From the NCBI RefSeq assembly GCF_004357995.1, contig NZ_SMTK01000002.1, positions 124,001-188,000 of the forward strand: a stretch of 64,000 nucleotides of DNA, written 5' to 3'. Made by a program: the position numbers and the translations under genes. This document shows positions 38,270 through 57,969 of the stretch, one piece after another (the first letter of the stretch is position 1; every line of letters starts with the position of its first letter). The notes under the pieces are model-generated. The model made no database searches. It worked only from the letters and a program-made list of their open reading frames with translations, and was not told the DNA's origin. The stretch comes from Arthrobacter crusticola (GTDB lineage Bacteria > Actinomycetota > Actinomycetes > Actinomycetales > Micrococcaceae).

Positions 38270-38308
38270 TCAGCCCTTCAGGAGTCAGCCCTTCGGGGTT
38301 AGCCCTTC
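38270..38308 (-). repeat. Three tandem repeats spanning the permease stop codon
   Basis: On the plus strand TCAGCCCTTC, TCAGCCCTTC and TTAGCCCTTC begin at 38270, 38285 and 38299 (periods 15 and 14). Read on the minus strand each is AAGGGCTRA, that is Lys-Gly-stop. Only the copy at 38299 is in frame with the permease; the other two lie downstream in different frames. Confidence 0.8.
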
Positions 38309-40211: not shown

Positions 40212-40217
40212 TTTCGG

Positions 40218-41537
40218 CTATTTTCCAAACGAGGCTTGGTTTTCTTCCATCAGCTGGGATGCTTTCGCAGCAACTTTTGAAAGGGCTTCCTTGGGCTCCT
40301 GCTCCCCGAGGATCGCGTTGTCGACGCCGACCTCGAGAGTCTCGGCCTGGACGGTGCCCAGACCCGGGACGGGAGGCAGGAACTTCATGGAGTCGACCTT
40401 CGCAGCGATCGGTTCCTGCGGGGCTCCATCAAGTGCTCCGCCTTCGCGGACCGACGTGCGGGCCGGGATCATGCCCGAGCCGGCCCAGGTATCGGAGTTC
40501 TCGCTCATCCAGGCGATGAAGACCTTGGCGGCGTTCAGCTTGTTCTCGTCGGGAGTGGCCTGGCGGGGGAGGAAGAAGTTGTGCGAGCTGGCCCACACGG
40601 CGTCTTCCTCGCCGATCACGGGGATCGGAGCGGCGGCGTAAGGTACGCCGGCGGCTTCGAGGTCGTTGAACTGCCAGATGCCGTCCCAGGTGATGGAGTT
40701 TTCACCGTTCTTGAAGGCGACGTACTGGGAATCGATGGCGACGTTCTTGGGGCTGTACCCATCCTCGATGATTGAGGTCTGCCATTCGAGCCCCTCGACG
40801 CCGGCCTCGGAATCGAAGGTTGCCTTGGCGCCATCGGCGTCGTAGGGCTCGCCGCCGTTCTGCCACAGGAGGGAGAGGTTCATGAGGTGGCTGGGCCACT
40901 TCGCGGGCATCCAGAACGGGTTGTCGTAGCCGGCGGCCTTGAGCTTCTTCAGCGCGTCCTCGAAGGATGCGGCGTCGGTGGGGGCCTCGGTGATGCCGGC
41001 CTTCTCGAAGTGCTCGGTGTTGTAGTACATCGCCAGGGAGTGAACATCCAGCGGGATGCCGTAGCGCTTATCCTCGTACACGCCTGCGTCCCAGACCTCT
41101 TCGGTGAAGTCATCACCGGTCAGCTCGAGTTCCTCGGCGAGGTCATCGACGGGAACGATGACGTTGCGGGCGGCGTTGGTCGACAACTGCTCAAGGTGCA
41201 TGACCCCGACGTCAGGGCCCTCGCCGGCCTGAACGGCGGCGGGAAGCTTCTGGTACATGTCGGCCCACTTGATGGTGTTGGGGACGACCTTGATGTTGTC
41301 ATGCTCGGCGTTGAATTCTTCGACCATCTGTTCCATGAACGGGCCGTCACCGCCGGTAAACCCGTTCCAGTAGTCGAGTTCGACCTTCGGGCCGGTGTAT
41401 TCACCGGTGAACTCCGTGGCCGTGCCCTGCTGGGCTCCGCCGCCTCCGCAGGCGGTGAGTGCCAGAAGGGTGGTGGCCCCAATGGCAGTGGCTGTGAATA
41501 CACGGTTACGGATGAACCGCTTCGGATAGGTCATCAT
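40218..41537 (-). CDS. Sugar ABC transporter substrate-binding lipoprotein
   Basis: 439 residues. The signal peptide ends at lipobox L-T-A-C (Cys30), followed by a Gly/Gln linker. The mature protein begins K-V-E-L-D-Y-W-N-G-F-T-G-G-D-G, typical of CUT1 sugar binders. GAGGAGGACA precedes two successive ATG codons (41537, 41534). It is first in the minus-strand transport operon and divergent from the LacI gene. With the GH2 enzyme nearby the ligand is probably a short beta-linked glycoside. Confidence 0.94.
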   Translation of the reverse strand: MMTYPKRFIRNRVFTATAIGATTLLALTACGGGGAQQGTATEFTGEYTGPKVELDYWNGFTGGDGPFMEQMVEEFNAEHDNIKVVPNTIKWADMYQKLPAAVQAGEGPDVGVMHLEQLSTNAARNVIVPVDDLAEELELTGDDFTEEVWDAGVYEDKRYGIPLDVHSLAMYYNTEHFEKAGITEAPTDAASFEDALKKLKAAGYDNPFWMPAKWPSHLMNLSLLWQNGGEPYDADGAKATFDSEAGVEGLEWQTSIIEDGYSPKNVAIDSQYVAFKNGENSITWDGIWQFNDLEAAGVPYAAAPIPVIGEEDAVWASSHNFFLPRQATPDENKLNAAKVFIAWMSENSDTWAGSGMIPARTSVREGGALDGAPQEPIAAKVDSMKFLPPVPGLGTVQAETLEVGVDNAILGEQEPKEALSKVAAKASQLMEENQASFGK

Positions 41538-41723
41538 TGTCCTCCTCGGTGAAAGTGGTGCTCAGCGCCAGGGGCGTTTCGCATCGTTGTCAGGCGGCCC
41601 ATCCGGCGAGGCGGCGTTCCGTAGACGTTGCCTCAAGATACAGCGCTGTAAACTTGTATGTCTAGTAAGCCCCAATGAGACCGAGCTGTCCACTAGTATT
41701 AATTCTCCAGGGAGGGGGTGGCA
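41538..41723. promoter_or_regulatory. Divergent promoter region between ABC operon and lacI-type gene
   Basis: 186 bp. It holds the palindrome TACAGCGCTGTA (41639-41650) and an imperfect inverted CTAGT/ACTAG pair around 41662-41696. On the minus strand TGGACA and TACTAG give a possible promoter with a long 19-bp spacer, just upstream of the palindrome. Confidence 0.5.
41639..41650. promoter_or_regulatory. LacI-type operator TACAGCGCTGTA
   Basis: Perfect 12-bp palindrome with the central CG typical of LacI-family sites. Read from the minus strand the flank extends to TTTACAGCGCTG, which recurs as TTTACAGCGTTG before the GH2 gene (42835-42846). Confidence 0.72.
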
Positions 41724-42782
41724 GTGAAGCGAGTAAGACTTGTCGACGTGGCCGAAGTCGCAGGCGTGTCGACGAAAACCGTGTCCAACGTTGTCCATGA
41801 TTACCCGCATGTGGCGCCCGAACTGAGGCGCCGGGTGCAGGCCGCCATCGACAAGCTCGGCTACCGGCCGAACCTGACCGCCCGCCGCCTCGTCACGGGC
41901 AAAACCGGAATGATCGCCCTCGCCATCCCGGAGATCGACCACCCCTACTTCTCAGAGCTCTCCCGCCAGATCGCCGAAGAGGCGGCGCGGCGGAACTACC
42001 GGGTCATCATTGAACAGACCCTGGGCAAACTCGAGGCTGAACACGCGGTGCTCGAGGACCGGGAAGCCGGCCTGGTGGACGGCATCATCTTCCACCCGGT
42101 CAGTATTGGCGCGTTGTCCATCGCGAAGCTCCACCACGACACTCCCCTGGTGCTGCTGGGGGAGGGCGCGATGCCGGCGACCAGCGACCACGTGATGATC
42201 GACAACGTTGCCGCAGCGGCCGAAGCGGTGCAGTTCCTCCTCGGGCAGGGACGGCGCCGCATCGCCTTCCTCGGCGTCGTCGAGGATGACGTCACCTTCT
42301 CGACGGACAAGCGGCTGCTGGGGTACCAGCAGGGCCTGATCGAGGCGGGACTGGATCCGGACCCCGGGCTCGTCCTGTCGGTGCAGGACTTCTCGTCCGA
42401 AGCCAGCGGTGAGGCGGTTCGGGCTGCCCTGGAGCGGGGGGTCTCCATCGACGGCATCGTCTGCCGCGATGACAAGTTCGCCGCCGGGGCGCTGCGGGCC
42501 TGCGCCGCCGCCGGCATTTCGGTGCCGGACGGAATCGCGGTGCTCGGGTGGGACGACACGGCCATCGGAAAGTACACCACGCCGAGCCTGACCTCGGTGG
42601 CTCCGGACAAGTCGGCGCTGGCATCGACGGCGCTCGAACTGCTGACCGAACGCATCGACGGCTTCCGCGGTGTCGGTCGGCACCGGATCGTTCCCCATGG
42701 ACTCACGATCCGGCAGAGCACGCCCTCCGTGCCCTCCGAGCTGCCCATGCCCCAGGGCGAGCCGGCCGTTCCGTCGGCCTGA
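41724..42782 (+). CDS. LacI-family transcriptional regulator
   Basis: 352 residues. GTG 41724 is 8 nt after GGAGG; the in-frame GTG at 41718 is too close to it. The N-terminal headpiece is V-R-L-V-D-V-A-E-V-A-G-V-S-T-K-T-V-S-N-V with hinge helix L-T-A-R-R-L. The periplasmic-binding-like core has D-H-P-Y-F-S-E-L and V-L-G-W-D-D-T-A-I-G-K-Y. It probably represses the divergent ABC operon and the downstream GH2 gene, given matching operator-like sites in both promoters. The inducer is likely the transported glycoside or a product of it. Confidence 0.94.
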   Translation: MKRVRLVDVAEVAGVSTKTVSNVVHDYPHVAPELRRRVQAAIDKLGYRPNLTARRLVTGKTGMIALAIPEIDHPYFSELSRQIAEEAARRNYRVIIEQTLGKLEAEHAVLEDREAGLVDGIIFHPVSIGALSIAKLHHDTPLVLLGEGAMPATSDHVMIDNVAAAAEAVQFLLGQGRRRIAFLGVVEDDVTFSTDKRLLGYQQGLIEAGLDPDPGLVLSVQDFSSEASGEAVRAALERGVSIDGIVCRDDKFAAGALRACAAAGISVPDGIAVLGWDDTAIGKYTTPSLTSVAPDKSALASTALELLTERIDGFRGVGRHRIVPHGLTIRQSTPSVPSELPMPQGEPAVPSA

Positions 42783-42814
42783 GAGGTCTCTTCCGCCGAA
42801 GCCGCGTCATGGTG

Positions 42815-42849
42815 AAACGTTTAGCGGAATCGACTTTACAGCGTTGAAA
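42815..42849 (+). promoter_or_regulatory. Two operator-like sites upstream of the GH2 gene
   Basis: AAACGTTT (42815-42822) is an 8-bp palindrome with the CG centre of LacI sites. TTTACAGCGTTGAAA (42835-42849) matches the divergent-region operator in its first 9 bases. Both lie within 60 bp of the GH2 start. Confidence 0.6.
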
Positions 42850-42870
42850 AATTCGGACAGGATTGACGCC

Positions 42871-44781
42871 ATGCCTAACTCTTCCTCCTTCAGCGCAAGC
42901 ACCCAAGACGGCACCTACCCGCGGCCCCAGCTCGTCCGGCGCCACTGGCACGATCTGTCGGGGGAATGGGAGTTCGAGCATGACGACTCAAATACCGGGA
43001 TTGCCAACGGGTGGGCAGCCGGGAAGAACAGCTTCAGCAAGCGGATCCTCGTCCCGTTCCCGCCCGAGTCAACCCGCTCCGGCATCGGTGACACGGGCTT
43101 CCATCCGGTGGTCTGGTACCGGCGCACCCTCACCCCGGCCGACATTGCCGCAAGCGGGTGGACCGGCGGCGACGACCGGGTGCTGATCCACTTCGGCGCG
43201 GTGGACTACCGGGCCTCGGTGTGGGCAGGCGACCGGCTGCTGGGCACCCACGAGGGCGGCCAGACACCGTTCTCCTTCGATATCACGGACCAGGCGAGGA
43301 CCGGGGAGGACTTCGTCCTCGTCGTCCGGGCCGAGGACGACCCCCACGACGTCTCCCAGCCACGCGGCAAGCAGGACTGGCTCGAAGAGCCCCACGTCAT
43401 CTGGTACCACCGCTCCACCGGGATCTGGCAGCGCGTCTGGCTCGAGGCCGTCCCCGCCACCTCCGTCCGCCGGATCGCCTGGCGATCGGATGTGCCCGGC
43501 GGGACGGTGAGCCTCGACGTCGAACTGTCCTCCCGTCCGGTCGACGAGGTAAGCGTCCGGGTCGAACTCAGCTACCGCGGCAAGCCCCTCGGCACCCACC
43601 AGGTGTTCTCCTCCCAGCCGCGGTTCACCATGACGAGCGCGCTGGCCCACCAGGCGAATGGCCAGGCCTATGAGAATCTCCTGTGGTCCCCTGCCCACCC
43701 GCGGCTTCTCGATGCGCGCGTCGTCCTGATGGACCGGGAGGGCAACGTCCTCGACGAGATCTGGTCCTACCTTGGCCTGCGCAGCGTGGGCGAAGCCGGC
43801 GGCCACTTCCTGCTCAACGACCGCCCGTTCTACGTCCGCTCGGTGCTCGAGCAGGGCTTCTGGCCAGACTCCCTGTACACCGCGCCGGACTCCCAGGCCA
43901 TCCAGGACGAGATCCAGCTGATCAAGGACCTGGGGTTCAACTCGGCCCGGCTCCATGAGAAGGTCGAGGACCCCCGCTTCCTGTACTGGGCCGACCGCCT
44001 GGGCCTGCTGATCTGGGGCGAGATCGGAAGCACCTTCGAATTCTCTCCGACCGCCGTCCAGCGGGTCACCCGTGAGTGGATGAGTGTCGTCGAACGCGAC
44101 ATCTCCCACCCCTCGATCGTCACGTGGGTTCCAGTCAACGAGAGCTGGGGCGTCCAGCACATCTCGCACGATCCCGCCCAGCAGCACTTCGTGCAGGCCC
44201 TGTACCACCTCACCAAGGCCCTCGATCCGACCCGCTCCGTCGTCTCCAATGACGGCTGGGAGCACACCGAGTCCGATCTGCTGACCATCCACGACTACAC
44301 GACGACGCACGACGGGCTGAAGGCGAACTATGCGAACGCTGAGGCGGTCGAGGGCCTCGTGGAGGGTGTGGGGCCGGCCGGCCGCAGGCTGACGACCCTT
44401 CCCACCGGTGGAAGCGGGAAGCCGGTGATGGTTTCGGAGTTCGGCGGCGTGACCTATGCGCCCAACAGCCCCATCGTCACCTGGGGCTACTCCACCGTCG
44501 ATTCCCCCGAAGACTTCGCCGACCGCGTGGGCGGCCTGTTCTCCGCCCTGCAGACGAGCCCGGTGCTCGCGGGATTCTGCTACACCCAGCTCACCGACAC
44601 GATGCAGGAGGCCAACGGGCTGACCGACGAAAACCGGAAGCCCAAGCTTCCGGTCGAGGTAATCCGTGCCATCGTCACCAACGGTGCGAAGGAAACCCAC
44701 GACAACGTCGTGGATGAGGGCGAGATGATCCTCCCGCAGTGGCAGCCGGGGCCCGCAGCCTCAGCCGCCGTCGGCTCCTAG
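42871..44781 (+). CDS. Glycoside hydrolase family 2 enzyme (beta-galactosidase/beta-glucuronidase type)
   Basis: 636 residues from ATG 42871. It has the N-terminal sugar-binding jelly-roll (R-R-H-W-H-D-L-S-G-E-W-E-F), an Ig-like middle domain and a TIM barrel starting P-F-Y-V-R-S-V-L-E-Q-G-F-W. The acid/base Glu is E424 in V-N-E-S-W-G and the nucleophile is E523 in V-S-E-F-G-G. No signal peptide is present, so it acts inside the cell on imported oligosaccharide. The sequence branch is the short GH2 type without a C-terminal BGL domain. Exact specificity (galactoside, glucuronide, mannoside, arabinoside) is not decidable here. Confidence 0.93.
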   Translation: MPNSSSFSASTQDGTYPRPQLVRRHWHDLSGEWEFEHDDSNTGIANGWAAGKNSFSKRILVPFPPESTRSGIGDTGFHPVVWYRRTLTPADIAASGWTGGDDRVLIHFGAVDYRASVWAGDRLLGTHEGGQTPFSFDITDQARTGEDFVLVVRAEDDPHDVSQPRGKQDWLEEPHVIWYHRSTGIWQRVWLEAVPATSVRRIAWRSDVPGGTVSLDVELSSRPVDEVSVRVELSYRGKPLGTHQVFSSQPRFTMTSALAHQANGQAYENLLWSPAHPRLLDARVVLMDREGNVLDEIWSYLGLRSVGEAGGHFLLNDRPFYVRSVLEQGFWPDSLYTAPDSQAIQDEIQLIKDLGFNSARLHEKVEDPRFLYWADRLGLLIWGEIGSTFEFSPTAVQRVTREWMSVVERDISHPSIVTWVPVNESWGVQHISHDPAQQHFVQALYHLTKALDPTRSVVSNDGWEHTESDLLTIHDYTTTHDGLKANYANAEAVEGLVEGVGPAGRRLTTLPTGGSGKPVMVSEFGGVTYAPNSPIVTWGYSTVDSPEDFADRVGGLFSALQTSPVLAGFCYTQLTDTMQEANGLTDENRKPKLPVEVIRAIVTNGAKETHDNVVDEGEMILPQWQPGPAASAAVGS

Positions 44782-47994: not shown

Positions 47995-49170
47995 CTAGCT
48001 GAGCGCGTACTGCAGCAGGAACCCGTCGACGGCCTCGGGGGCGAAAACCTTCCGCATCACCAGAGTGGTGAGCCCCTCAAGGGCGGCATCGTCGCCCGCC
48101 GCCCCGCCTTCGACGGTGAGGCCCTCGGCGATCCGTCCGACGACATCGGAAAGCACCCGCTCCCGCACTTGGTCGACGAACGCAGGGAGCACCCCGATCG
48201 TGCCGCCGAGGACAAGCCGGTCGGGATTGATGGTGGTGACGGTGGTCGCCAGTGCCCGGCCCAGGACGTCGGCGGCCGCCGTCAGCGCGTCAACCACCAC
48301 CGGTTCGCCCCTTTGGGCGGCGGCGCTGATCTCCGGGAGGGTGGCGTAGCCGGCCGGACCGAGCTTGAGACCCAGGGACCGCCCGGAACTGAACGTGGCA
48401 AGGCAGCCGTGCCGGCCGCAGCTGCACACCGGGCCGTTGGGGGTGACGCGGATATGGCCGATGTCGCCCGCCGCGCCGTGGGCACCGTGAAGGATCGAGC
48501 CGTCGACGACGATCCCGCAGCCGATGCCGGTGGCGACCTTGATGTAGACGAGGGTTTCGGCGTCGGTCCTGCGTTCACCCAGAGCCGCGGTGCGTGCGTC
48601 ATTCTCGATGACGAGGGGCACCGACCAGCGCCCGGACACGGCGGCGACGACGGCGTCCGGCGGCCAGCCGGGGATCGTCGTCGAGTGGACCACGTGGCCG
48701 GTGGCCGCCTCGACCGGGGAGGGCAGGCTCACACCCACGCCGGTGAGGACCTCCGAAGGGTCCTGCTCCAGCAGCTCGACTCCGGCTGCAAGCAGCGGCC
48801 CCAGGACGGTGTTGGCCGGCTCGGAGATCCGGTGGGCCAGCGTGCGGGTGCGCAGCTGCCGGCCGTCGGTATCGGTGACACTGACCGTGGCGTGGGTCTG
48901 GCCGAGGGCGAAGGCGAGGATCACACGTCCCCGGTCATCGAACCGGATCTTCCGGGAGCGACGCCCGCCGGTGGCCTCGAGCGGTTCGGCCTCGTAGACC
49001 AGGCCGCGGCGCACCAAGGCATCGAGGCGTTCGTAGAGGGTGGCACGTGACATGCCGGTGGCGGCCAGCAGCTGCTGGCGGGACAGGCCGCCGGTGGAAC
49101 GGATCAGGTGAAGGAGGCTGCCGTGGGAGGCGGCCCCACCCAGCCCTGCGGGCACACGCTCAACAGCCAT
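47995..49170 (-). CDS. ROK-family transcriptional repressor
   Basis: 391 residues from ATG 49170 with AGGAGGGG upstream. Unlike the ROK kinase at 26620 it has an N-terminal winged helix (residues 18-60: I-R-S-T-G-G-L-S-R-Q-Q-L-L-A-A-T-G-M-S), so it is a regulator. The ROK part has the zinc motif C-S-C-G-R-H-G-C-L and G-V-G-V-S-L-P-S-P. It is the last gene of the seven-gene series running 55975 to 47995 and probably represses it, with the transported sugar or glucose as inducer. Confidence 0.92.
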   Translation of the reverse strand: MAVERVPAGLGGAASHGSLLHLIRSTGGLSRQQLLAATGMSRATLYERLDALVRRGLVYEAEPLEATGGRRSRKIRFDDRGRVILAFALGQTHATVSVTDTDGRQLRTRTLAHRISEPANTVLGPLLAAGVELLEQDPSEVLTGVGVSLPSPVEAATGHVVHSTTIPGWPPDAVVAAVSGRWSVPLVIENDARTAALGERRTDAETLVYIKVATGIGCGIVVDGSILHGAHGAAGDIGHIRVTPNGPVCSCGRHGCLATFSSGRSLGLKLGPAGYATLPEISAAAQRGEPVVVDALTAAADVLGRALATTVTTINPDRLVLGGTIGVLPAFVDQVRERVLSDVVGRIAEGLTVEGGAAGDDAALEGLTTLVMRKVFAPEAVDGFLLQYALS

Positions 49171-49236
49171 TGAGTCCCCTCCTGTTCGGTCGTTCAGCCT
49201 ACCGCAGGCCGGTCGGCCCTCCGGCACCGCACCGGG

Positions 49237-50385
49237 TCAGGCCGCCGGGAACCAGTCCTCGGCGATCCGGTGGCCGAGGGTGCCCAGCAGGGCGTCGGCG
49301 TTGCGGATGGACTTCTGCAGGTCCTGTTCCAGTTCGGTCAGTGCGTAGGCGCGGGTGATGCCAAGCCCTTCCAGTTCCCCTGCGGTGAGGGTCCGCCGGC
49401 CGCAGACCGCGGCGACGGGAAGGCCGCGGGCGAGGGCGGCGCGGGCCACGCCCGCCGGCGCCTTGCCGCTGAGGGTCTGGGCGTCGAGGGAGCCTTCACC
49501 GGTGATCACCAGGTCGCCCTCGCGCAGTCGGGCGAGGGCGTCGGCGAACCCGACGAGTTCGAGGACCACCTCCACCCCGGGCCGGGTGGTGGCCTCGAGG
49601 ACCGCCAGCGCAGCAAAGCCCAGTCCTCCGGCGGCCCCGGCCCCGGGCGCTTCGCTGACGTCGGGGGAGGACCCGCAGGCGCGGTGGACGGCGTCGGCGT
49701 AGTGCCGGAGCCCATCCTCAAGCGCTGCAACGTCGGTGGGTGACGCGCCCTTCTGCGGCCCGTACACCGCCGCCGCGCCCCGAGGCCCGAGGAGGGGGTT
49801 GTCGACGTCGGTTGCGAGGATCACCTCGCAGGTGGCGAGCCGGGCATCGAGTGTCGTGAAGTCCAGCCGGCCCAGGTCGGCCAGGGCCCCGCCGCCGCGG
49901 CCGAGGGCGCGGCCGCGCCGGTTGACGGCGAGGGCTCCGAGCGCCTCAAGGAAACCAAGGCCCCCGTCGGTCGAGGCGCTGCCGCCGACGCCGAGGATGA
50001 TCCGGCGGGCGCCGGCGTCAAGGGCGGCGCGCACCAGTTCACCGGTGCCGTAGGTGGTGGCGGCCAGCGGGGCGGGGATTCCGCCGGGCAGCTTTTCGAG
50101 GCCCGAGGCCTGGGCCATCTCGACGACGGCGGTGGCCGTTCCCGCATGCCAGGCGAAGGCAGCGGCCAGCCGTTCCCCGGTGGGACCGGTGACCACCACC
50201 TCCCGCCGGGCGTAGCCGGCGCCGACCGCCGCATCGAGGGTGCCGTCCCCGCCGTCGGCGATGGGCATGCGCACCACCCGCAGGTCCGGGCGGTGCGCCG
50301 TCAGGCCGCGGCCGACGGCGGCGCACACTCCCGGGGCGCCCAGGGAGCCCTTGAACTTGTCGCTGGCGACGAGGACGGTTCTCAT
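49237..50385 (-). CDS. glxK: Glycerate kinase
   Basis: 382 residues from ATG 50385. This start overlaps the stop of the preceding hydrolase gene by 4 bp (ATGA). Signatures of the GarK/GlxK family are V-A-S-D-K-F-K-G-S-L at the N-terminus, I-A-D-G-G-D-G-T near residue 43, G-V-G-G-S-A-S-T-D-G-G near 130 and I-T-G-E-G-S-L-D near 290. It phosphorylates D-glycerate, commonly to 2-phosphoglycerate, feeding glycolysis. Its coupling to a glucosylglycerate-type hydrolase gives a direct route from the released glycerate to central metabolism. Confidence 0.96.
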   Translation of the reverse strand: MRTVLVASDKFKGSLGAPGVCAAVGRGLTAHRPDLRVVRMPIADGGDGTLDAAVGAGYARREVVVTGPTGERLAAAFAWHAGTATAVVEMAQASGLEKLPGGIPAPLAATTYGTGELVRAALDAGARRIILGVGGSASTDGGLGFLEALGALAVNRRGRALGRGGGALADLGRLDFTTLDARLATCEVILATDVDNPLLGPRGAAAVYGPQKGASPTDVAALEDGLRHYADAVHRACGSSPDVSEAPGAGAAGGLGFAALAVLEATTRPGVEVVLELVGFADALARLREGDLVITGEGSLDAQTLSGKAPAGVARAALARGLPVAAVCGRRTLTAGELEGLGITRAYALTELEQDLQKSIRNADALLGTLGHRIAEDWFPAA

Positions 50386-51743
50386 GACGGGGTGTCCGGC
50401 GATGCTCCACCGGGCGCGCCGATCCATTCGAGGGCCGCCGCGGCAGTCCACGCCTGGGCGAAGCTGCCCAGCGGCGTCCCGCTCAACGGGTCGTAGTACT
50501 CGGCGAACTTCAGGTCCGAGAGCTGGTCCAGGGAGGCAGAGCGCAGGCTTCCATGGAGGTGTTCCTGCCCGTCGCGGGCGCTGGCCCAGCCCAGGAGCAG
50601 GTTGAGGAAGGGCCAGACCGGTCCGCGCCAGTAGGTGCGGGGGCGGAAGGCCGGGCTGGCGGGAGAAGTGGACGGCGGCAGCGGGAACCGCAGGTCCGGG
50701 TGTCCCATCCAGTGCGGCCCCTGGAGCAGGTCACGCTGGCGTTCGAGCAGGCCGGGGTCGCCGCCGGCTACCAGCGGGGCGAAGCCGGAGACCGTGTCGG
50801 TGGAGATCCACTCGCTGGCCAGCACATCGTAGTCGCGGGCCAGTCCGGTGGCAGGATCGACGGTTGACGCCACCCCGGCACGGAACCGTGCGGCCAGCTC
50901 CCGGAGCTCGGCGGCGTCTCCGGTGCGGCCGAGCTCATCCCCGAGCCCGGCAAGCACCTCGCTCGACGCGGCCATAATGCCGGAGAAGAACACGTCGCGG
51001 ACCCGGAAGTCGATGGTGTCGCGGACGGCATCGTCGTCGAACCGGACCGAGGCCATCTGCTGGACGAGCCAGAGGTACTTGGTGTACTCGGCGTCGTCGG
51101 GGCGCTCGCTGGCGTCGGCGACGTGCAGGGTGTCCCGGCGGGTGAACGGCTCGACCTCCCCGGGGACGACTCGGGAGTATGGTCCGTCCCAGCGCGGGGA
51201 ATTGTCGAAGCCCGATTCCCAGCCGTGGTGGATCTCAACGAGGCCCACGCCGTCGGGGTCCCTGACGGTGGCCAGCCAGCGGTGCCAAGCGAGCCAGCCG
51301 TCGAAGGACTCGGCGAGGAAGGACTCGGCGGCCTGCTGGTCGCTCCCACCGTTCTCCCGGGCCCGGTCGAGGATGTGGCGCAGGGCGATCGCGTGGACCG
51401 GGGGCTGGCAGATTCCGCTGCTCCGGGTCCCCGGCGGGAGCGCCGCGGCGTTGGCGGTTCCCCAGCGGTCGAACCCGGGGAAGTAGCCCGTGTCGTCGTC
51501 GGTAAAGACGATGTGGGGGATCATGCCGGTTGTCCACTGAGCGGCCAATAGGGTCCGGAGCTCGGTGATGGCGCGGGGAACGCTGACCCGGGCCAGGCCG
51601 ATGGAGATGAAGGCCGCATCCCAGCTCCACATGTGCGGGTAGAGGTTGGGAGCCGCCGTGGTCATGGTGCCCAGGTCGTTCACGCGTAGGACTTCGATGG
51701 CGGCGGCGCGCAGCTGTGCGGTGCTAAGGGTCTCGATGCTCAT
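50382..51743 (-). CDS. ggh: Glucosylglycerate/mannosylglycerate hydrolase (GH63)
   Basis: 453 residues with the (alpha/alpha)6 barrel of GH63 enzymes; no signal peptide, so cytoplasmic. From memory, Mycobacterium hassiacum glucosylglycerate hydrolase uses D182 and E419 for catalysis, with D43, W177, Y375 and Q434 also at the active site. This protein has D42 in M-W-S-W-D-A, W175 and D180 in G-W-E-S-G-F-D-N-S, Y371 in T-Y-W-R-G-P, E415 in F-A-E-Y-Y and Q430 in F-A-Q-A-W, at offsets of 1, 2 and 4. It should hydrolyse glucosylglycerate (or mannosylglycerate) to hexose and glycerate. Glycerate kinase follows by 4-bp overlap. Confidence 0.9.
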   Translation of the reverse strand: MSIETLSTAQLRAAAIEVLRVNDLGTMTTAAPNLYPHMWSWDAAFISIGLARVSVPRAITELRTLLAAQWTTGMIPHIVFTDDDTGYFPGFDRWGTANAAALPPGTRSSGICQPPVHAIALRHILDRARENGGSDQQAAESFLAESFDGWLAWHRWLATVRDPDGVGLVEIHHGWESGFDNSPRWDGPYSRVVPGEVEPFTRRDTLHVADASERPDDAEYTKYLWLVQQMASVRFDDDAVRDTIDFRVRDVFFSGIMAASSEVLAGLGDELGRTGDAAELRELAARFRAGVASTVDPATGLARDYDVLASEWISTDTVSGFAPLVAGGDPGLLERQRDLLQGPHWMGHPDLRFPLPPSTSPASPAFRPRTYWRGPVWPFLNLLLGWASARDGQEHLHGSLRSASLDQLSDLKFAEYYDPLSGTPLGSFAQAWTAAAALEWIGAPGGASPDTPS

Positions 51744-52822
51744 CGTGCCACCAGCGCCATCGCGGTTTCGCTGTCGTAGAAGCGCATGCTGTTCGGGGAG
51801 AAGGTCAGCCAGATCGTCGACCCGGGGGAGGTGCGGAAGGTCGGCGGCGCCTGGACCTTGATGGTCTGGCCCTCCACCTCCACCGTGAGCAGGATCGAGG
51901 AACCCATTGGTTCGACCACTAGGACCGTTCCCGGGACATCTCCTGAGGAGCGCTGGGTGTCCACGGCGACGTTTTCGGCGCGGACCCCCAGCAGGACGTC
52001 GGTGCTCGAGTAGGACTGCAGCAGGGACGGGGCGCGCAGGCGCTGGTCGCCCACGATCAGTGCGCCGCCGTCACCGGAGACCGCCGCCTTGATGAAGTTC
52101 ATCGGCGGCGAGCCGATGAAGCCGCCCACAAACCGGTCCGCCGGTGCGTCGTAGACATCGAGCGGATCACCCAGTTGGGCGATCTGTCCCTTCCGCATGA
52201 CGGCTACGCGGTCACCCAGGGAAAGTGCCTCGCTCTGGTCATGGGTGACGTAAACGGTCGTCGTCTTGAGATCCTTGACGATTTTCTTCAGCTCCGATCG
52301 GAAGTTGAGACGCAGCAGGGCGTCGAGGTTGGAAAGGGGTTCGTCCATGAGGAGGACGTCGGCGTCCATCACGATGGCACGGGCGACGGCGACGCGCTGG
52401 CGCTGGCCGCCGGAGAGCTGGGCGGGCAGGCGGTCCAGGTAGGGGCCGAGCTGCAGCAGGTCGGCGGCCCAGGCGACCTTTCGATCGATCTCTTCCTTTG
52501 GCTTCTTCGCCATGGAGAGACCGAAGCCAATATTGTAGCGGACCTTGCGGTGCGGGAAGACGGCGTACGACTGGAACACCATCGACATGTTGCGCTTGTT
52601 CGGCGGGAGGTAGGTGACGTCCTTGCCGCCGACGGCGATGGATCCGCTGTCGGGCAGTTCGAGGCCGGCGAGCATGCGCAGGAGAGTGGTTTTGCCGCAG
52701 CCCGACGGGCCGAGCAGGACGGTGAAGTCGCCGTCGGCGATGTCGAGCGACACGTCGTCGGTGGCCCGCTCGGTGCCGCCGGGATAGGTCTTGACGAGGT
52801 GGGAAATGGTGATGTCCGCCAT
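51740..52822 (-). CDS. Sugar ABC transporter ATPase (UgpC/MalK/MsiK type)
   Basis: 360 residues from ATG 52822 with AAGGAG upstream. Walker A is G-P-S-G-C-G-K-T-T, the Q-loop is F-Q-S-Y-A-V-F-P-H, the signature is L-S-G-G-Q-R-Q-R-V, Walker B is V-L-L-M-D-E-P-L-S-N-L-D and the switch is T-H-D-Q-S-E-A. The C-terminal TOBE regulatory domain (V-L-L-G-V-R-A-E-N-V) is present. It powers the transporter of the same operon. It is the only CUT1-type ATPase in the window and might also serve the two importers that lack one. Its stop overlaps the hydrolase start by 4 bp. Confidence 0.96.
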   Translation of the reverse strand: MADITISHLVKTYPGGTERATDDVSLDIADGDFTVLLGPSGCGKTTLLRMLAGLELPDSGSIAVGGKDVTYLPPNKRNMSMVFQSYAVFPHRKVRYNIGFGLSMAKKPKEEIDRKVAWAADLLQLGPYLDRLPAQLSGGQRQRVAVARAIVMDADVLLMDEPLSNLDALLRLNFRSELKKIVKDLKTTTVYVTHDQSEALSLGDRVAVMRKGQIAQLGDPLDVYDAPADRFVGGFIGSPPMNFIKAAVSGDGGALIVGDQRLRAPSLLQSYSSTDVLLGVRAENVAVDTQRSSGDVPGTVLVVEPMGSSILLTVEVEGQTIKVQAPPTFRTSPGSTIWLTFSPNSMRFYDSETAMALVAR

Positions 52823-52866
52823 GATCGGCTCCTTCGAAGGTTGAGGAAAGCGTTGGGGTGCGCGGG

Positions 52867-53736
52867 TCAGCGGATGGTCGAGCCCCACATATTGGTCAGG
52901 TAGCGGCGCATGAAGGCGATGAAGATGATCGAGGGGATCACCAGGGCGAAACCTCCGGCGAACCGGTAGGCGAGGGGTGAATCGGCGAGCGAGGTGAGGA
53001 CCTGCGCCGGGAGCGTCCGGTGGTCGAGGGTGAGGATCGAGGCACCGAGGACCTCGTTCCAGGACATCACGAAGGTGAAGATGGAGGCCGCGGCGAGTCC
53101 GGGCAGGGCCATCGGCATGACCACCTTGAGGAAGGCCCCGGCCGGGGTGCACCCGAACACCCGGGCTGCCTCTTCGACGTCGATGGGGACGCTGAGGAAG
53201 ACGCTTGCGGAGATGAGGATGGTGGTGGGCAGGGCCAGCGCCGTGTGGAGCAGGATCACCGCGTACGTCGTGTCGTAGAGGTCGACGGTGAGGAAGAGCC
53301 GGGCCAGCGGCACGGAGAGCACCACGATGGGCAGGGCGCGGGTGAACAACAGGAACAGCTGGTAGGGCTCCTTGGCGGGGAACGCGAAGCGGGCGAGGGC
53401 GTAGCCGGCCGGGATGCCGATCAGTGCGGAGATGAGCAGCGTGCCGATGCCGACGATCAGCGAGTTGCCGAACGCACCGAGGATGCCGGTGGAGCCGAGG
53501 AACGCTCCGAGGGTCTCGAAGGAGAGGTTTGTGGGCAGCAGGCTCAAGGGGAAGTCGTTGAGGGATTCCCGGGTGGAGAGTGCGGCGAGGGAGATCAGGT
53601 AGATCGGCACCAGCATGAACAGCGAGATGACGATGCAGGCGGCTTGGAGCAGTGCCCGGTCGCGGCGCAGGCGCTTCAGGGGAGCGGTGTCGACGTCGGG
53701 CTGGGGTGCGAGGGGTTTGGTTTGCGTCGTCGTCAT
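52867..53736 (-). CDS. CUT1 sugar ABC permease (MalG-like)
   Basis: 289 residues from ATG 53736, overlapping the MalF-like stop by 4 bp. Six hydrophobic helices. The EAA loop is V-E-E-A-A-R-V-F-G-C-T-P-A-G-A-F, slightly unusual because F-G-C replaces the common L-D-G. The C-terminus is F-M-R-R-Y-L-T-N-M-W-G. It is the second permease of the glucosylglycerate-type importer. Confidence 0.94.
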   Translation of the reverse strand: MTTTQTKPLAPQPDVDTAPLKRLRRDRALLQAACIVISLFMLVPIYLISLAALSTRESLNDFPLSLLPTNLSFETLGAFLGSTGILGAFGNSLIVGIGTLLISALIGIPAGYALARFAFPAKEPYQLFLLFTRALPIVVLSVPLARLFLTVDLYDTTYAVILLHTALALPTTILISASVFLSVPIDVEEAARVFGCTPAGAFLKVVMPMALPGLAAASIFTFVMSWNEVLGASILTLDHRTLPAQVLTSLADSPLAYRFAGGFALVIPSIIFIAFMRRYLTNMWGSTIR

Positions 53737-54626
53737 CGGGTGCCTTCCTGCCCTTTGTCGCGGAGTGCCCGCAGGTAGAAAACGGAGATCAGCATTGAGG
53801 CCACGAGGATGACCAGCGCGAGGGCTGCCGCTACGTTGGGGTTCTGCAGGGCGGTGTACCAGCGGTAGGTTTCGCCGACGACGAGCGGGAAGTTCTGGCC
53901 GGTGAGTGCCTGGGCGACGGCGAAGGTCTGGAACGCCAGGATGGTACGCAGGATCAGTGCCACTTGGAGGCTCGGTTTGAGCAGGGGAAGGGTAACGTGG
54001 CGCAGCCGCTGCCAGAAGGTTGCCCCGAAGACCTGAGCTGCTTCGTCGTAGTCCTTGGGGATGCCCTGCAGGCCGGAGACCACGATGACGAGCACCAGCG
54101 ACGTCGAACGCCACACCTCGGCGACGAGGACGCAGAGGAACAGGGTGGTGGGGTTGTCGTAGGCGAGCCAGGGGACGGAGCCGAGGCCCAGGGAGGTCAG
54201 CACCGAGTTGAGGTAACCGCGGTCGTTGAAGATCGAGAGCCAGACGAGGCCCGCGGCGAGGTCGCTGAGGGCCAGCGGAATGGCCCAGACGAAGAAGTGG
54301 ACCTTGTTCAGGCGCGGATTCGACCGCAGGAGCAGCGCCATGGTGATGGCGAAGGCGAACTGGAGCGGGATCATCACCACGATCAGCAGCAGGGTGTTGC
54401 GGACCGCGGGCCAGAAGTACGGGTCCTCGACCATGCGGGTGAGGAAGTCGAGGGTGAAGCCTTCATCGCTGCGGAAGGCCTGGAGCACGCCCTGGATGAC
54501 GGGCCAGCCGAGGAGCAGGGCCATGAAGACGATCGACGGTGCGATCAGCAGGACCGCGGGGGGAATGCGGCGGGGACGGGCGGGCGTGTCCAGTTGGACC
54601 GGGGCCGGGGGTGAATCGACTGTCAT
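53733..54626 (-). CDS. CUT1 sugar ABC permease (MalF-like)
   Basis: 297 residues from ATG 54626, overlapping the binding-protein stop (TAATG). GAGG lies in front. Six hydrophobic helices and EAA loop D-Y-D-E-A-A-Q-V-F-G-A-T-F-W-Q-R-L, again with F-G in place of D-G; both permeases share this variation, suggesting co-evolution with their ATPase. Confidence 0.94.
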   Translation of the reverse strand: MTVDSPPAPVQLDTPARPRRIPPAVLLIAPSIVFMALLLGWPVIQGVLQAFRSDEGFTLDFLTRMVEDPYFWPAVRNTLLLIVVMIPLQFAFAITMALLLRSNPRLNKVHFFVWAIPLALSDLAAGLVWLSIFNDRGYLNSVLTSLGLGSVPWLAYDNPTTLFLCVLVAEVWRSTSLVLVIVVSGLQGIPKDYDEAAQVFGATFWQRLRHVTLPLLKPSLQVALILRTILAFQTFAVAQALTGQNFPLVVGETYRWYTALQNPNVAAALALVILVASMLISVFYLRALRDKGQEGTR

Positions 54627-55975
54627 TACGCTACCTCGCACTTCTGGCCGGGTGAGACAGGGTCGGGGGCCCAGCAGGAGACGTCCAGGTCCTTGAGGAT
54701 GGTGTTGAGCTGTTTGGCCTGGTCATCCAGGGTTGACTGAACGGCCGAACCGTTGAGACAGATCTCCTGGAAGCAGTTCTTGAAGATCTGGGACACCTCG
54801 CCCTCCTTGGCGCCGAGACCCACCGGAGGAAGGGCAAGGCGTGCGTCGGCCGATTCCTGCTGGAGTTTCACCGCGGCGGCCTCGAGGGCGATCGCTCCGG
54901 CGAGGTCGGTGGGGAGTTCCGTCTGGACCACCGGGAAGAACGCGTTGCTGCGCAGGGTTTCGATCTGCGTTTTGGGTTTCGCGAGTCCGCGGATGGCCTG
55001 TTCGGCCCGGTCTCGCTCAAGCCCGTTCTTGGGAAGGGCGACGCCGGCGACGATCAGCATGTAGCCGCGGCCCTTCGGTCCCTTCGGGGAGGGAACCATG
55101 AGCCATTCATCCGGGTTGTCGGCCGGGGCATCGATGAGCCGGGCCACGTGGTCCCATGCGACGAGGACCTCGCCGCGGGCCAGTGGTTCCTGCATGGCGT
55201 CGAAGTTGGTTGAGGCGGGAGCGCTGGCATCCCAGAGGTCCCTCATGTACTCCCAGGCGGTCACTGCGTCCTCGTTGCGGAACGTGGTGATCTGCCCGCC
55301 GGTGAAGCTGGGCAGCAGGAAGCCCTGGTAGAAGCGGTGGTGGAGTCCTTTGGGACCGGCGGGCAGGCCGAATACGGGTCGGCCCTCGCCCTTCTTGGCT
55401 GCCTGTGCCCATTTCAGGAAGTCCTCGTAGGTGAGGTCGTTGACGTCGACGCCCTTGGGCAGCCACTTGAGCGCCTTCTTGTTCACTGCGACGACGTAGG
55501 TTGCCTGCATCCAGGGAACGTACTTGGAGGTGCTGCCGCCGATCTTGGTCAGTTCGAGGATTTCCCGGTTGTAACCGCTGCCGGAGAGATCGTTGAGGAG
55601 CTGATCGACGTCCTCGAGGGAGTCAGCGAGTGGGGCGAGGTCGCCGTGGAGTCCGCCCAGGAGTGCGGTGCGGACGCTGCCGGCCTGGGACTGGGTCTGC
55701 ACGGTGGAGGTGAAGACACCGGGGTCGACGGAGTTGTAGGCGACGGGAACGTTGAGGGTTTTCTTGAGGACGTCTTCGTAGCGCTGCTTTTCCTCGACTG
55801 GAGTGAACTGGGTGGAAAGGAAGCCGACGGTTCCCTTGGCGGCTGAGGCGCCGCTGGTGTCGAAGCCTGCACAGGAGGCGAGGAAGGGAACCGAAAGGGC
55901 CGCGCCGAGTCCACCAAGGAGGGCGCTGCGTCGTGAGACGGAGCGCTGCAGGAGTTGGGGAGGGGTGTTTCTCAC
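54626..55975 (-). CDS. Sugar ABC transporter substrate-binding lipoprotein with Tat-like signal
   Basis: 449 residues from GTG 55975, preceded by GGAG at a 6-nt spacing; a TTG further up (56017) is less likely. The N-terminus S-V-S-R-R-S-A-L-L matches the twin-arginine export motif, and the lipobox is L-A-S-C (Cys35). It is therefore probably exported folded and lipid-anchored. The rest is an extracellular solute-binding type 1 fold. As first gene of an operon with glucosylglycerate hydrolase and glycerate kinase, its ligand is predicted to be glucosylglycerate or a similar compatible solute. The gap before it (to 56271) holds TTGACA on the minus strand (56045-56040), a possible -35 box. Confidence 0.9.
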   Translation of the reverse strand: MRNTPPQLLQRSVSRRSALLGGLGAALSVPFLASCAGFDTSGASAAKGTVGFLSTQFTPVEEKQRYEDVLKKTLNVPVAYNSVDPGVFTSTVQTQSQAGSVRTALLGGLHGDLAPLADSLEDVDQLLNDLSGSGYNREILELTKIGGSTSKYVPWMQATYVVAVNKKALKWLPKGVDVNDLTYEDFLKWAQAAKKGEGRPVFGLPAGPKGLHHRFYQGFLLPSFTGGQITTFRNEDAVTAWEYMRDLWDASAPASTNFDAMQEPLARGEVLVAWDHVARLIDAPADNPDEWLMVPSPKGPKGRGYMLIVAGVALPKNGLERDRAEQAIRGLAKPKTQIETLRSNAFFPVVQTELPTDLAGAIALEAAAVKLQQESADARLALPPVGLGAKEGEVSQIFKNCFQEICLNGSAVQSTLDDQAKQLNTILKDLDVSCWAPDPVSPGQKCEVA

Positions 55976-56271
55976 TGGTGCTCCGATCAAGAGTGCTCCA
56001 TTGCAGCTTCCGTCCAAGACTCAGACAAAAGTTTGGAAGTGTCAAGTGCCACAGGGGAAAAGCTGGTCCACCGGACCTGGTGCCGGGCCGTCAGAGGGCA
56101 AGGGTTGGGCTCGCATCCTCGGCGGAGCAGGGGCCCATGGTGCGATCGGGGGTGGGGGACCGGCTGGGTGGCGGCGCGGTAGGAAAGTCTGCTGGTCGAG
56201 CCGCTGCTTGCGGCTTGGTTGCCGGAGCAGCCGGGCGAGATTCAACGCTGCGTGCGTCCCTGGTCAGCTGC
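55976..56271. promoter_or_regulatory. Upstream region of the glucosylglycerate-type operon
   Basis: 296 bp between the DUF222 gene end and the binding-protein start, both on the minus strand. It contains TTGACA at 56045-56040 (minus) but no good -10 box at 16-18 bp. No strong terminator for the DUF222 gene is evident. No gene recognised. Confidence 0.35.
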
Positions 56272-57969
56272 TCAGTCCAGAAGGAGTTCAGTGGTTCCTT
56301 GTGGGGGTCCTGCTGTCCAGTAGCGGTTTCGGCGGGGTTTTTGCTCGGGGTCCAGGTGGTGGGGTGGGAGGAACCAGGGGATGCCGTGCCGGGAGTGCAC
56401 GCTCCAGGGCCCGTCGTGGATGCGGTGGTGGTGGTGGGAGCACAGCAGCACCCCGTCGGCGAGTGTGGTGGTGCCGCCGGTTTCCCAGGGGGTGATGTGG
56501 TGGGCCTCGCACCAGGTGGCCGGGATGGTGCAGCCGGGGAAGGCGCAGCCCTTGTCCCGGGCGACCAGGGCCCGGCGCAGGTGCGCAGGGAACAGCCGCT
56601 GGGCGCGGCCGAGGTCCAGGACCTGGCCCTTCCCGCCCAGGACCAGGGGGATGAGGTCCGCGTCGCAGGCGAGCCGGCGGATGCTGCGGGCCGGGATCTG
56701 CCGGGCGAAGACCGCATCGCCGGCCCGGTGCAGGTCCCCCAGGAGGGTGCGGTAGTCGATGGTGACCATGACCTGGGGGCGGTGCCCGCCGGCGGCGGGC
56801 AGGCCGGTCCCGGCCAGGGCGATCCGGCAGGCGCCCACCAGGGCCTCGAGCAGCTGCTGGGCCCGGGTGGGCCGCTCGTCTCCGTCGAGCCGGGCACCGG
56901 GCGATCCACTACCTGGGTCCTCACCGGTTGTGCCGTCACCGGTTGTGCCGTCACCGGTTGTTCCGTCACCGGTTGTGCCGTCACCGGTTGTGCCGTCACC
57001 GGTTGTTCCGTCACCGGGTGTTCCACCGCCGGGCCCGTCGGCGGATCCGGTGCCCGAGGCCTCACCGGTGCCGGGCAGGCGGGGGTTGGTGGCGGTGGTC
57101 ATCACCGTGGCCAGGTGTTCGAACTGCTCGTCCGTGGCCCCGATCTCCAGGAGGTGCAGCCCGTTGCGGCGCCCGCGCAGGAACACGCCCTGGCGGGCCC
57201 GCAGCAGCTTCTCCGTCGGCTCCTGCCCGTCCTGGTCCAGGGTGTTCTCCCACCGCCGGGCCACCGCGCGCAGGATGTCCTCATCGCCCTCCACGGCCTG
57301 GTGGGTGAGGTGGCGCTCCATCGCCTCCAGGGCCGGCCGTCCGGCCACCGGCCGCACCCTGTCGACCGCATCGCGGATCAGGGACGCGGCCCGCCCGCTG
57401 ACCTGCCCGGCCCCGCAGGCCGCACCCAGGACCGCCAGCGCAGCCGGCGCCTCCAGCCCGCCGGCGGGCACCGCCGGCAGGGTGGCCGCGGCCAGGCGCA
57501 GCCGCCGGGCCGCCTCGGCCCGGCTGATCCGCAGCCGGCCCCGCAGGTACTCGGCGGTATCGCGGAACTCCGACCGGGCACCGCCGGCACGATCCGGCCC
57601 CGCCCCGGGAGCAGCCAACGGCCCGCCGCCGGGAACAGCCCACCGCCGCTCCACGGGTGAAGCCCGGTGCCCGTCAGCGGGTGAAGCCCACGGCCGGTCC
57701 CCGGGATCGGCGAGGCGGTGCTGGTCGGCGGCGTGGGCGCCCAGGACCTGCAGATGGTCCACGATCCGGGAGAGCTCCTCGATCCGGGCCACCGTGTCGG
57801 CGACCTCCCGGCGCCCCAGCAGCAGGAACCGTCCGGAGAAATCGGCGGCAAATCCCGTGAGTGCGGCATGCGCCCCGGCGAGCAACTCCCCCGTGCCCGA
57901 GAGCAACTCCCCGGTACCGGAGGGGAGATCCCCGGTGCCCGTGTGCTCCTCGACCGGTGCCGTTGCCAT
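56272..57969 (-). CDS. DUF222/HNH endonuclease (13E12-repeat type)
   Basis: 565 residues. The N-terminal two-thirds is DUF222 (A-E-Y-L-R-G-R-L-R-I-S-R-A-E-A-A-R-R; G-A-G-Q-V-S-G-R-A-A). The C-terminal HNH nuclease domain has R-D-K-G-C-A-F-P-G-C, W-C-E-A-H-H-I-T-P-W and L-C-S-H-H-H-H-R-I-H-D. This is the 13E12 repeat family of Actinobacteria, often multi-copy and SOS-induced; its DNA target is unknown. The middle carries a Gly-Asp-Gly-Thr-Thr repeat (see repeat) and Pro/Gly/Ala linkers. A perfect LexA box lies 12-29 bp upstream of ATG 57969. A TAGAAT box 6 bp before the ATG implies a leaderless mRNA. Confidence 0.95.
   Translation of the reverse strand: MATAPVEEHTGTGDLPSGTGELLSGTGELLAGAHAALTGFAADFSGRFLLLGRREVADTVARIEELSRIVDHLQVLGAHAADQHRLADPGDRPWASPADGHRASPVERRWAVPGGGPLAAPGAGPDRAGGARSEFRDTAEYLRGRLRISRAEAARRLRLAAATLPAVPAGGLEAPAALAVLGAACGAGQVSGRAASLIRDAVDRVRPVAGRPALEAMERHLTHQAVEGDEDILRAVARRWENTLDQDGQEPTEKLLRARQGVFLRGRRNGLHLLEIGATDEQFEHLATVMTTATNPRLPGTGEASGTGSADGPGGGTPGDGTTGDGTTGDGTTGDGTTGDGTTGDGTTGEDPGSGSPGARLDGDERPTRAQQLLEALVGACRIALAGTGLPAAGGHRPQVMVTIDYRTLLGDLHRAGDAVFARQIPARSIRRLACDADLIPLVLGGKGQVLDLGRAQRLFPAHLRRALVARDKGCAFPGCTIPATWCEAHHITPWETGGTTTLADGVLLCSHHHHRIHDGPWSVHSRHGIPWFLPPHHLDPEQKPRRNRYWTAGPPQGTTELLLD
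56921..57025 (-). repeat. 15-bp minisatellite encoding (Gly-Asp-Gly-Thr-Thr)n in the DUF222 gene
   Basis: Seven contiguous 15-bp units, consensus on plus strand TCACCGGTTGTGCCG. Two variants (GTGCC = A, GTTCC = B) are arranged A-A-B-A-A-B, then a diverged last unit, so a 45-bp block has itself been duplicated. The array stays in frame and lies in the linker before the C-terminal half. Confidence 0.9.

Follow-up and report, generated by a model that had tools for sequence, protein, structure and literature searches.

The subject of this analysis is a 64-kb window (the whole stretch of DNA that was analysed; C2, positions 124001-188000) from the 3.67-Mb genome of Arthrobacter crusticola, and in particular a seven-gene operon that runs on its minus strand from position 55975 to position 47995 (Table 1). 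We suggest, with a probability of roughly 0.8, that this operon is a unit for the uptake and catabolism of glucosylglycerate (GG). Import and breakdown of a glycosylglycerate are supported by the score and the residues of the encoded hydrolase, by the linkage of importer and hydrolase genes in related genomes, by the rarity of the GG-synthesising enzyme GpgS (mycobacterial type) and the absence of mannosylglycerate synthase (MpgS) among the genomes that carry the operon, and by related gene clusters in other phyla. From its sequence, we regard the operon as a well-supported prediction: a unit whose kind is known, sugar-type ATP-binding cassette (ABC) uptake and breakdown, but whose substrate is unusual.

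In the mechanism we favour, the lipoprotein would capture GG outside the cell, the two permeases and the MalK-type ATPase would import it, and the GH63 hydrolase would cleave it to glucose and glycerate once inside the cytoplasm. Glycerate kinase would convert the glycerate to phosphoglycerate for glycolysis, and the glucose would be taken by a glucokinase that we assume to be encoded elsewhere in the genome. The ROK protein would repress the promoter via a palindrome and be released by GG or one of its products.

The hydrolase and its probable substrate

The hydrolase passes the cut-off of the NCBIfam glucosylglycerate hydrolase equivalog NF047898 (694.5 bits, cut-off 550). Its best match in the PDB is the GG hydrolase (GgH) of M. 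hassiacum (MhGgH; 5ohc, 505.8 bits), the mannosylglycerate hydrolase (MgH) of Thermus scoring far lower (244.9 bits), and 236 of the 436 residues aligned with MhGgH are identical (54%). The hydrolases of an uncultured Arthrobacter and of Arthrobacter sp. MSA 4-2 share 96% and 95% identity with it. All six active-site residues named in the original prediction, D42, W175, D180, Y371, E415 and Q430, stand at the positions given there and align with D43, W177, D182, Y375, E419 and Q434 of MhGgH, the catalytic pair D182 and E419 being kept as D180 and E415. Twenty of 22 MhGgH positions drawn for checking from PMC6608630 are identical in the window enzyme. The two differences are Q433A and S435A; in MhGgH, Q433 and S435 contact N23 of a loop and are not named as direct substrate contacts in the available part of that paper (PMC6608630).

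Three sets of enzymes were compared: 24 of the operon type (with the window enzyme among them), 57 more that the same search returned, and eight MgH-like proteins from plasmid records, 31–38% identical to the window hydrolase. The catalytic pair is invariant over all three sets, the 81 enzymes of the GgH set (the 24 and the 57) have the same residue at each of 19 contact or catalytic positions, and nearly all contact residues are common to the window enzyme and the eight MgH-like proteins. One clean difference separates the GgH set from the MgH-like proteins. The position of Gln434 of MhGgH, a residue that hydrogen-bonds glucose (PMC6608630), is Gln in 81 of 81 enzymes of the former and Phe in eight of eight of the latter, with Phe to be read as a marker seen in this comparison and not as a published definition of MgH. 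The aligned Thermus MgH (2z07) carries an FSW motif and thus Phe at this position, where the window enzyme has Gln430. Among the eight MgH-like proteins is one from a plasmid of Rubrobacter radiotolerans, an organism with a characterised MgH (PMC6608630) that may be the product of the same gene.

Pfam and NCBIfam searches found no mannose isomerase in the window operon. Because the enzyme has Gln430 in place of Phe and the operon has no mannose isomerase, GG is favoured over mannosylglycerate (MG) as the likelier substrate. The operon had originally been assigned to glucosylglycerate or mannosylglycerate; the import and breakdown of a glycosylglycerate are supported, and on these two grounds the substrate can probably be narrowed to GG.

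Linkage of importer and hydrolase

A survey of the best 80 of 542 relatives' loci found the importer genes in order directly upstream of the hydrolase in 23 and parts of them in three, with too little upstream sequence in ten and none in 44. The full block occurs in Arthrobacter, Pseudarthrobacter, Sinomonas, Enemella and Pseudonocardia thermophila. In a tree of 81 hydrolases, for which the tree tool gave a long-branch warning, 23 of the 24 operon rows fall within a single group of 28 rows (support 82/92), the Enemella row standing apart, and the operon label requires six changes, whereas shuffled labels require 21 on average. The linkage is also seen from the side of the importer. A profile of 14 binding proteins, applied at E≤1e-60 to 395 sampled Micrococcaceae genomes, matched in 24 of them, always with at least 791 bits. 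All 24 encode a hydrolase above the cut-off on the same contig and strand, 2869–2952 bp away (about 2.9 kb downstream), a co-location that refers to the binding protein and the hydrolase only, the intervening genes lying outside that comparison. Chance does not account for the arrangement: of 80 hydrolase loci, 23 repeat the five-gene block in the same order, and in each of the 24 genomes the genes for binding protein and hydrolase lie together.

The hydrolase itself is above the cut-off in three genomes of a 100-genome Micrococcaceae sample (the window genome, G037 and G018, the gene of G018, at locus L122, having no adjoining importer) and in 35 of 396 genomes of a phylum sample. Up to four hydrolase-family matches per genome, some of them fragments, occur elsewhere in the phylum (G293, G304, G378 and G469), and the Micrococcaceae genome G824 has a second one of 333 bits, below the cut-off.

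Members of the importer family are widespread; in the sampled Micrococcaceae, they stand mostly in genomes without GpgS. GpgS is above its cut-off in two of the 24 importer-bearing Micrococcaceae genomes, one of which is the window genome, and in three of 100 sampled Micrococcaceae. Among the genomes of 50 of the 80 hydrolase loci, it was found in two of 23 with the full block versus 17 of 27 others (Fisher p ~1e-4, a value that overstates independence since the genomes are related). MpgS (PF09488) was found in none of 26 operon-bearing genomes. Most bearers of the operon are apparently unable to make the solute via GpgS or MpgS, other routes to GG not having been searched for. Because GpgS occurs in only two of 24, most operon-bearing relatives probably obtain the solute from outside.

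Related clusters extend beyond Actinomycetota. A hydrolase relative is encoded in 35 plasmid records, of which 15 were examined, chosen for annotation and variety, while the other 20 are mostly from Rhizobium and Neorhizobium; one of the 15, from Nocardia farcinica, is a stretch without listed genes and is left out of the counts. In 12 of the 14 remaining clusters (Paracoccus, Ruegeria, Loktanella, Meiothermus, strain SC52, Fuscovulum, Rhizobium, Marinovum, Shinella, Deinococcus, Chelatococcus and Maritalea), genes for a binding protein, permease(s) and an ATPase are contiguous with the hydrolase gene, with one permease listed beside an unlisted gap in Loktanella and the ATPase placed after the hydrolase in Maritalea. 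In place of an ABC importer, the Emticicia cluster encodes a TonB receptor together with a sodium transporter, and in Rubrobacter only a major facilitator superfamily (MFS) gene lies near the hydrolase. Six of the importers were compared with that of the window. In Deinococcus, Meiothermus, Fuscovulum, Rhizobium and Paracoccus the binding protein is 40–44%, permease 1 44–54% and permease 2 44–51% identical to its window counterpart; the Maritalea importer is dissimilar (permease 1 25%, permease 2 24%, binding protein without a match). The order binding protein, permease, permease, ATPase, hydrolase, taken as annotated, occurs with a homologous importer in five of these six clusters from Deinococcota and Alphaproteobacteria. 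Furthermore, a mannose isomerase is annotated in three clusters from Rhodobacterales (Alphaproteobacteria) and a glycerate kinase in four plasmid clusters, and a DUF4147 protein of the Deinococcus cluster matches glycerate 2-kinase (214 bits, below the cut-off). In Meiothermus taiwanensis, a sugar phosphorylase (sucrose-phosphorylase family, below the cut-off) follows the importer-hydrolase cluster at L148:8331-10001, and hydrolysis and phosphorolysis may coexist there.

This homology across phyla is the strongest hint that the importer family, and not the hydrolase alone, is specific for glycosylglycerates. We lean towards the view that a dedicated ABC importer family for glycosylglycerates accompanies GgH and MgH hydrolases in Actinomycetota, Deinococcota and Alphaproteobacteria, and that the genes downstream vary as if fitted to the sugar released, some clusters having a glycerate kinase and a sugar kinase and others a mannose isomerase.

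Operon anatomy, promoter and downstream genes

The seven genes are consecutive on one strand, as originally predicted, with coordinates that proved correct and with Pfam and NCBIfam matches consistent with all seven assignments (Table 1). Of the NCBIfam matches shown, just those of the hydrolase and of the kinase pass a curated cut-off. Generic families are matched by the transporter parts, the ATPase reaching 385 bits against NF008653, under its cut-off of 432. By Pfam the operon holds a full carbohydrate ABC importer set, made up of the binding lipoprotein, two permeases and a MalK-type ATPase with an OB/TOBE regulatory domain. The junctions had been described as mostly overlaps of 1–4 bp, which holds for four of the six. 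The permease 2/ATPase junction is a 44-bp gap, and the distance from the kinase to the ROK gene is 66 bp with the ATG start, which agrees with the starts of several orthologues, or 9 bp with an alternative open start, the GTG at 49227. The description of the lipoprotein as of the twin-arginine translocation (Tat) type likewise stands, the twin-arginine pair and the lipobox cysteine being near-invariant (at least 90%) in 14 aligned binding proteins, that of the window included.

Table 1. Features of the proposed GG operon and its promoter (window coordinates)
Feature	Position	Strand	Remarks
Tat-type solute-binding lipoprotein (SBP_bac_1), proposed glucosylglycerate-binding	54626..55975	-	GTG start; PF01547 3e-16
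ABC permease 1	53733..54626	-	PF00528 2.6e-17
ABC permease 2	52867..53736	-	PF00528 3.2e-15
MalK/UgpC-type ABC ATPase with OB/TOBE domain	51740..52822	-	PF00005, PF08402, PF17912
Glucosylglycerate hydrolase (GH63)	50382..51743	-	NF047898 694.5 bits; PF22422 1.1e-90
Glycerate kinase (PF02595 type)	49237..50385	-	PF02595 4.4e-124; TIGR00045 381.8 bits
ROK-family transcription regulator, probable repressor	47995..49170	-	ATG start; PF00480 3.1e-50 and helix-turn-helix matches
Putative operator, overlapping promoter	56007..56031	-	imperfect 25-bp palindrome, arms CTTNNGTCT and ACNRAAG
Putative -35 element	56040..56045	-	TTGACA

Of 12 upstream regions of the window's type, that of the window among them, 11 contain the sequence TTGAC followed by the palindrome; L025 has no exact match. 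The palindrome starts 14 bp after the start of TTGAC in ten regions and 13 bp after it in one. Its arms match at six to eight of nine positions, and six or more matches occur in 1.5% of 3495 control 25-mers. At up to one mismatch the pattern has a single site in the window genome and its reversed control has none; as the pattern was derived from these upstream sites, its presence is no test, and its uniqueness in the genome is. Several Pseudarthrobacter-type loci have another palindrome (TTATGATCGATCATCA) at a similar place. The ROK protein has an N-terminal winged helix and a C-terminal ROK domain (Pfam), and we infer that it represses the operon through the palindrome.

The glycerate kinase is above its family cut-offs (PF02595, 414.6 versus 23.3 bits; TIGR00045, 381.8 versus 168.45 bits) and is the single PF02595-family match in the window genome; phosphoglycerate would be its product. 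When presence is scored as a match of at least 45% identity after the hydrolase, a glycerate kinase adjoins the hydrolase in five of the 23 full blocks. Three of these five (L013, L017 and L025) have an extra NagK-like sugar kinase gene between the glycerate kinase and ROK genes, with NagK_SO3507 matches of 65–77 bits, below the cut-off of 370. No glycerate kinase was found in eleven Micrococcaceae loci of a second type (L033, L035-L040 and L042-L045) nor in Enemella L086; a divergent ROK gene is present in ten of these eleven and in L086. In one of them, the Pseudarthrobacter-type L033, an oxidoreductase-like gene (L033:11297-12610; best match inositol 2-dehydrogenase, 61 bits, below the cut-off) follows the hydrolase where a glycerate kinase would be expected, a hint that the products are used differently in this cluster. 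Genes in the neighbouring loci were called from frame length and from G+C at third codon positions, and some of the starts and small frames listed are unreliable. An open frame overlapping the hydrolase gene in L022 was considered as a transporter and rejected as an acyl-CoA ligase. In Jiangella, a 1345-residue protein with caspase-EACC1 and anti-phage helicase matches below their cut-offs is encoded downstream of the hydrolase (L026:11564-15601).

Upstream of the operon, the window encodes a DUF222 protein with tandem TGDGT repeats (56272-57969, minus strand); the L010 DNA that matches this region is 85–88% alike, versus 93.5% for the operon. A second ABC transport cluster lies at 38299-44781, with a binding protein (40218-41537) and two permeases (39216-40211 and 38299-39219), all on the minus strand, and a GH2-like enzyme on the plus strand nearby (42670-44781).

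Alternative explanations and known systems

Several observations weigh against a dedicated GG-uptake unit. The 44 of 80 hydrolase loci without such an importer upstream include the Arthrobacter loci L020 and L022, and Paenarthrobacter L018 (the same genomic region as L122) shows just a short ATPase match. The operon is patchy, being found in 24 of 395 Micrococcaceae genomes, and 18 of the 23 full blocks show no glycerate kinase match after the hydrolase. The ligand proposed for the binding protein is argued from context: a PDB sequence search gave no relative at E≤0.01, a profile search gave weak matches only (best E 0.073), and an AlphaFold2 model built from 14 aligned sequences was too poor for a ligand argument (predicted local distance difference test 41.6, predicted template modelling score 0.27). 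Moreover, the window genome itself carries GpgS (412 bits, cut-off 262), and the sister strain Arthrobacter sp. MSA 4-2 (L021) has apparently lost the importer while its hydrolase stays. At the L021 junction (L021:542-544), sequence like window positions ~55859-51777, which covers the binding-protein gene except its early part, both permease genes and most of the ATPase gene, is missing, and hydrolase, kinase and ROK genes are kept; the loss is tentative, as the junction lies ~0.5 kb from a contig end and an assembly fault is possible.

The last two points bear on salvage, the least doubtful of the alternatives though still an unlikely one, in which GG would be made by GpgS and a GpgP-like phosphatase, recaptured by the importer after leakage and recycled by the hydrolase, as proposed for mycobacteria. 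In the window genome, GpgS (C1:760283-761215; L121:7248-8219, minus strand) lies beside a divergent histidine phosphatase. The two best PDB matches of this protein are to glucosyl-3-phosphoglycerate phosphatases, and its NCBIfam matches are all below the cut-off. The pair of GpgS and phosphatase is kept in L128 and L129, the other two GpgS-positive Micrococcaceae of the 100-genome sample, and the sister strain, whose importer is apparently mostly lost although its hydrolase, kinase and ROK genes persist, is also GpgS-positive. However, GpgS is absent from 22 of the 24 importer-bearing Micrococcaceae and rare in the family, and the state of the sister strain may be an artefact of its contig end. 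The idea of an external solute as carbon source, put forward originally, thus fits most relatives and is less certain for the window species, which may also make GG itself and recapture it; the external reading is weaker there because its own genome encodes GpgS together with a GpgP-like phosphatase.

The other alternatives are more improbable. MhGgH also acts on MG, which it binds in the same site (PMC6608630), and three alphaproteobacterial clusters of the same gene order carry a mannose isomerase, so that MG taken up from other organisms might be conceived as the main substrate. This is improbable for the window operon, whose hydrolase scores as a GgH and matches MhGgH (506 bits) better than it does Thermus MgH (245 bits), and which has Gln430 rather than Phe and no mannose isomerase. 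Slightly more improbable is an importer that carries a different or larger glycoside, its place beside the hydrolase being incidental or serving a GG precursor. A binding protein without a characterised sequence relative in the PDB and the 44 loci that do without an importer would agree with it, but co-location in 24 of 24 genomes at near-constant spacing, and homologous importers adjoining homologous hydrolases in other phyla, argue against it. Least probable of all, in our judgement, is import of GG chiefly as an osmoprotectant, with the hydrolase merely trimming the pool; GG is indeed a compatible solute (PMC7178133), but a hydrolase, a glycerate kinase and a sugar-type ROK regulator in one operon point to catabolism.

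If the operon serves GG uptake and catabolism, it would matter in several ways. In the available parts of the literature cited here, GG figures mainly as an osmolyte inside the cell and as a store for nitrogen starvation. With a regulated operon for importer and hydrolase that occurs mostly in species without GpgS and MpgS, GG would become a carbon source drawn from the environment. The operon would also supply candidates for a GG-specific ABC importer and its binding protein, and clusters with a 'trehalase family glycosidase' in rhizobia, Rhodobacterales and Deinococcota could be annotated after it. To judge from the related gene sets of distant bacteria, microbial stress protectants of this kind may be nutrients that are shared in nature. 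Were the cross-phylum importer family real, compatible solutes that microbes release on lysis or under stress would form a standing public nutrient. The window species, probably able both to make and to import GG, would then take part in that trade from both sides.

Among known systems, MhGgH is like the window enzyme in being a GH63 protein with the same catalytic acid/base and substrate contacts at 54% identity. In its paper the enzyme is tied to the recycling of internal GG on recovery from nitrogen starvation (PMC6608630), and the terms operon, transporter and glycerate kinase are absent from the main text. The mycobacterial loci are unlike the window, with an importer in none of the nine that have enough upstream sequence, and both mycobacterial genomes checked (L064 and L069) have GpgS. 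The MgH of Thermus thermophilus (2z07/4wva) resembles the window enzyme, which carries the Pfam-named MgH domain PF22422; it and the MgH-like enzymes differ in having Phe at the position of Gln430. In E. coli, MngA and MngB take up mannosylglycerate by a phosphotransferase system (PTS) and cleave it inside the cell with a hydrolase that differs from GgH, and they resemble the window operon in uptake and intracellular cleavage of a glycosylglycerate. The ycjNOP genes of E. coli encode an ABC importer. The E. coli ycjM operon is similar to the window operon in placing a GG-degrading enzyme in a carbohydrate operon with a repressor, and differs in that YcjM is a GH13 phosphorylase, the regulator YcjW is of the LacI type and YcjT is linked to kojibiose (PMC6599011, PMC7178133). 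Genes for GG phosphorylase often stand beside genes for glycerate kinase, GpgS or GpgP, and occur in many organisms not believed to accumulate GG, their purpose in vivo being described as unsettled (PMC7178133). The window operon opens a similar question to testing in a simple soil bacterium.

In the literature searched, we found no description of an ABC importer-GgH operon, of its relatives across phyla or of an inverse relation to GpgS, although coverage was incomplete and an earlier mention is possible; PMC5507952, as far as its text was available, mentions GG once, as an osmolyte. A Prochlorococcus GG operon includes a putative transporter gene, and external GG has been proposed from transcripts as a source of organic carbon (PMC11631117). 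That system differs in belonging to a cyanobacterium with GG as a major solute, where breakdown yields glucose-1-phosphate and 3-phosphoglycerate (PMC11631117). GG as a nutrient is therefore not a new idea.

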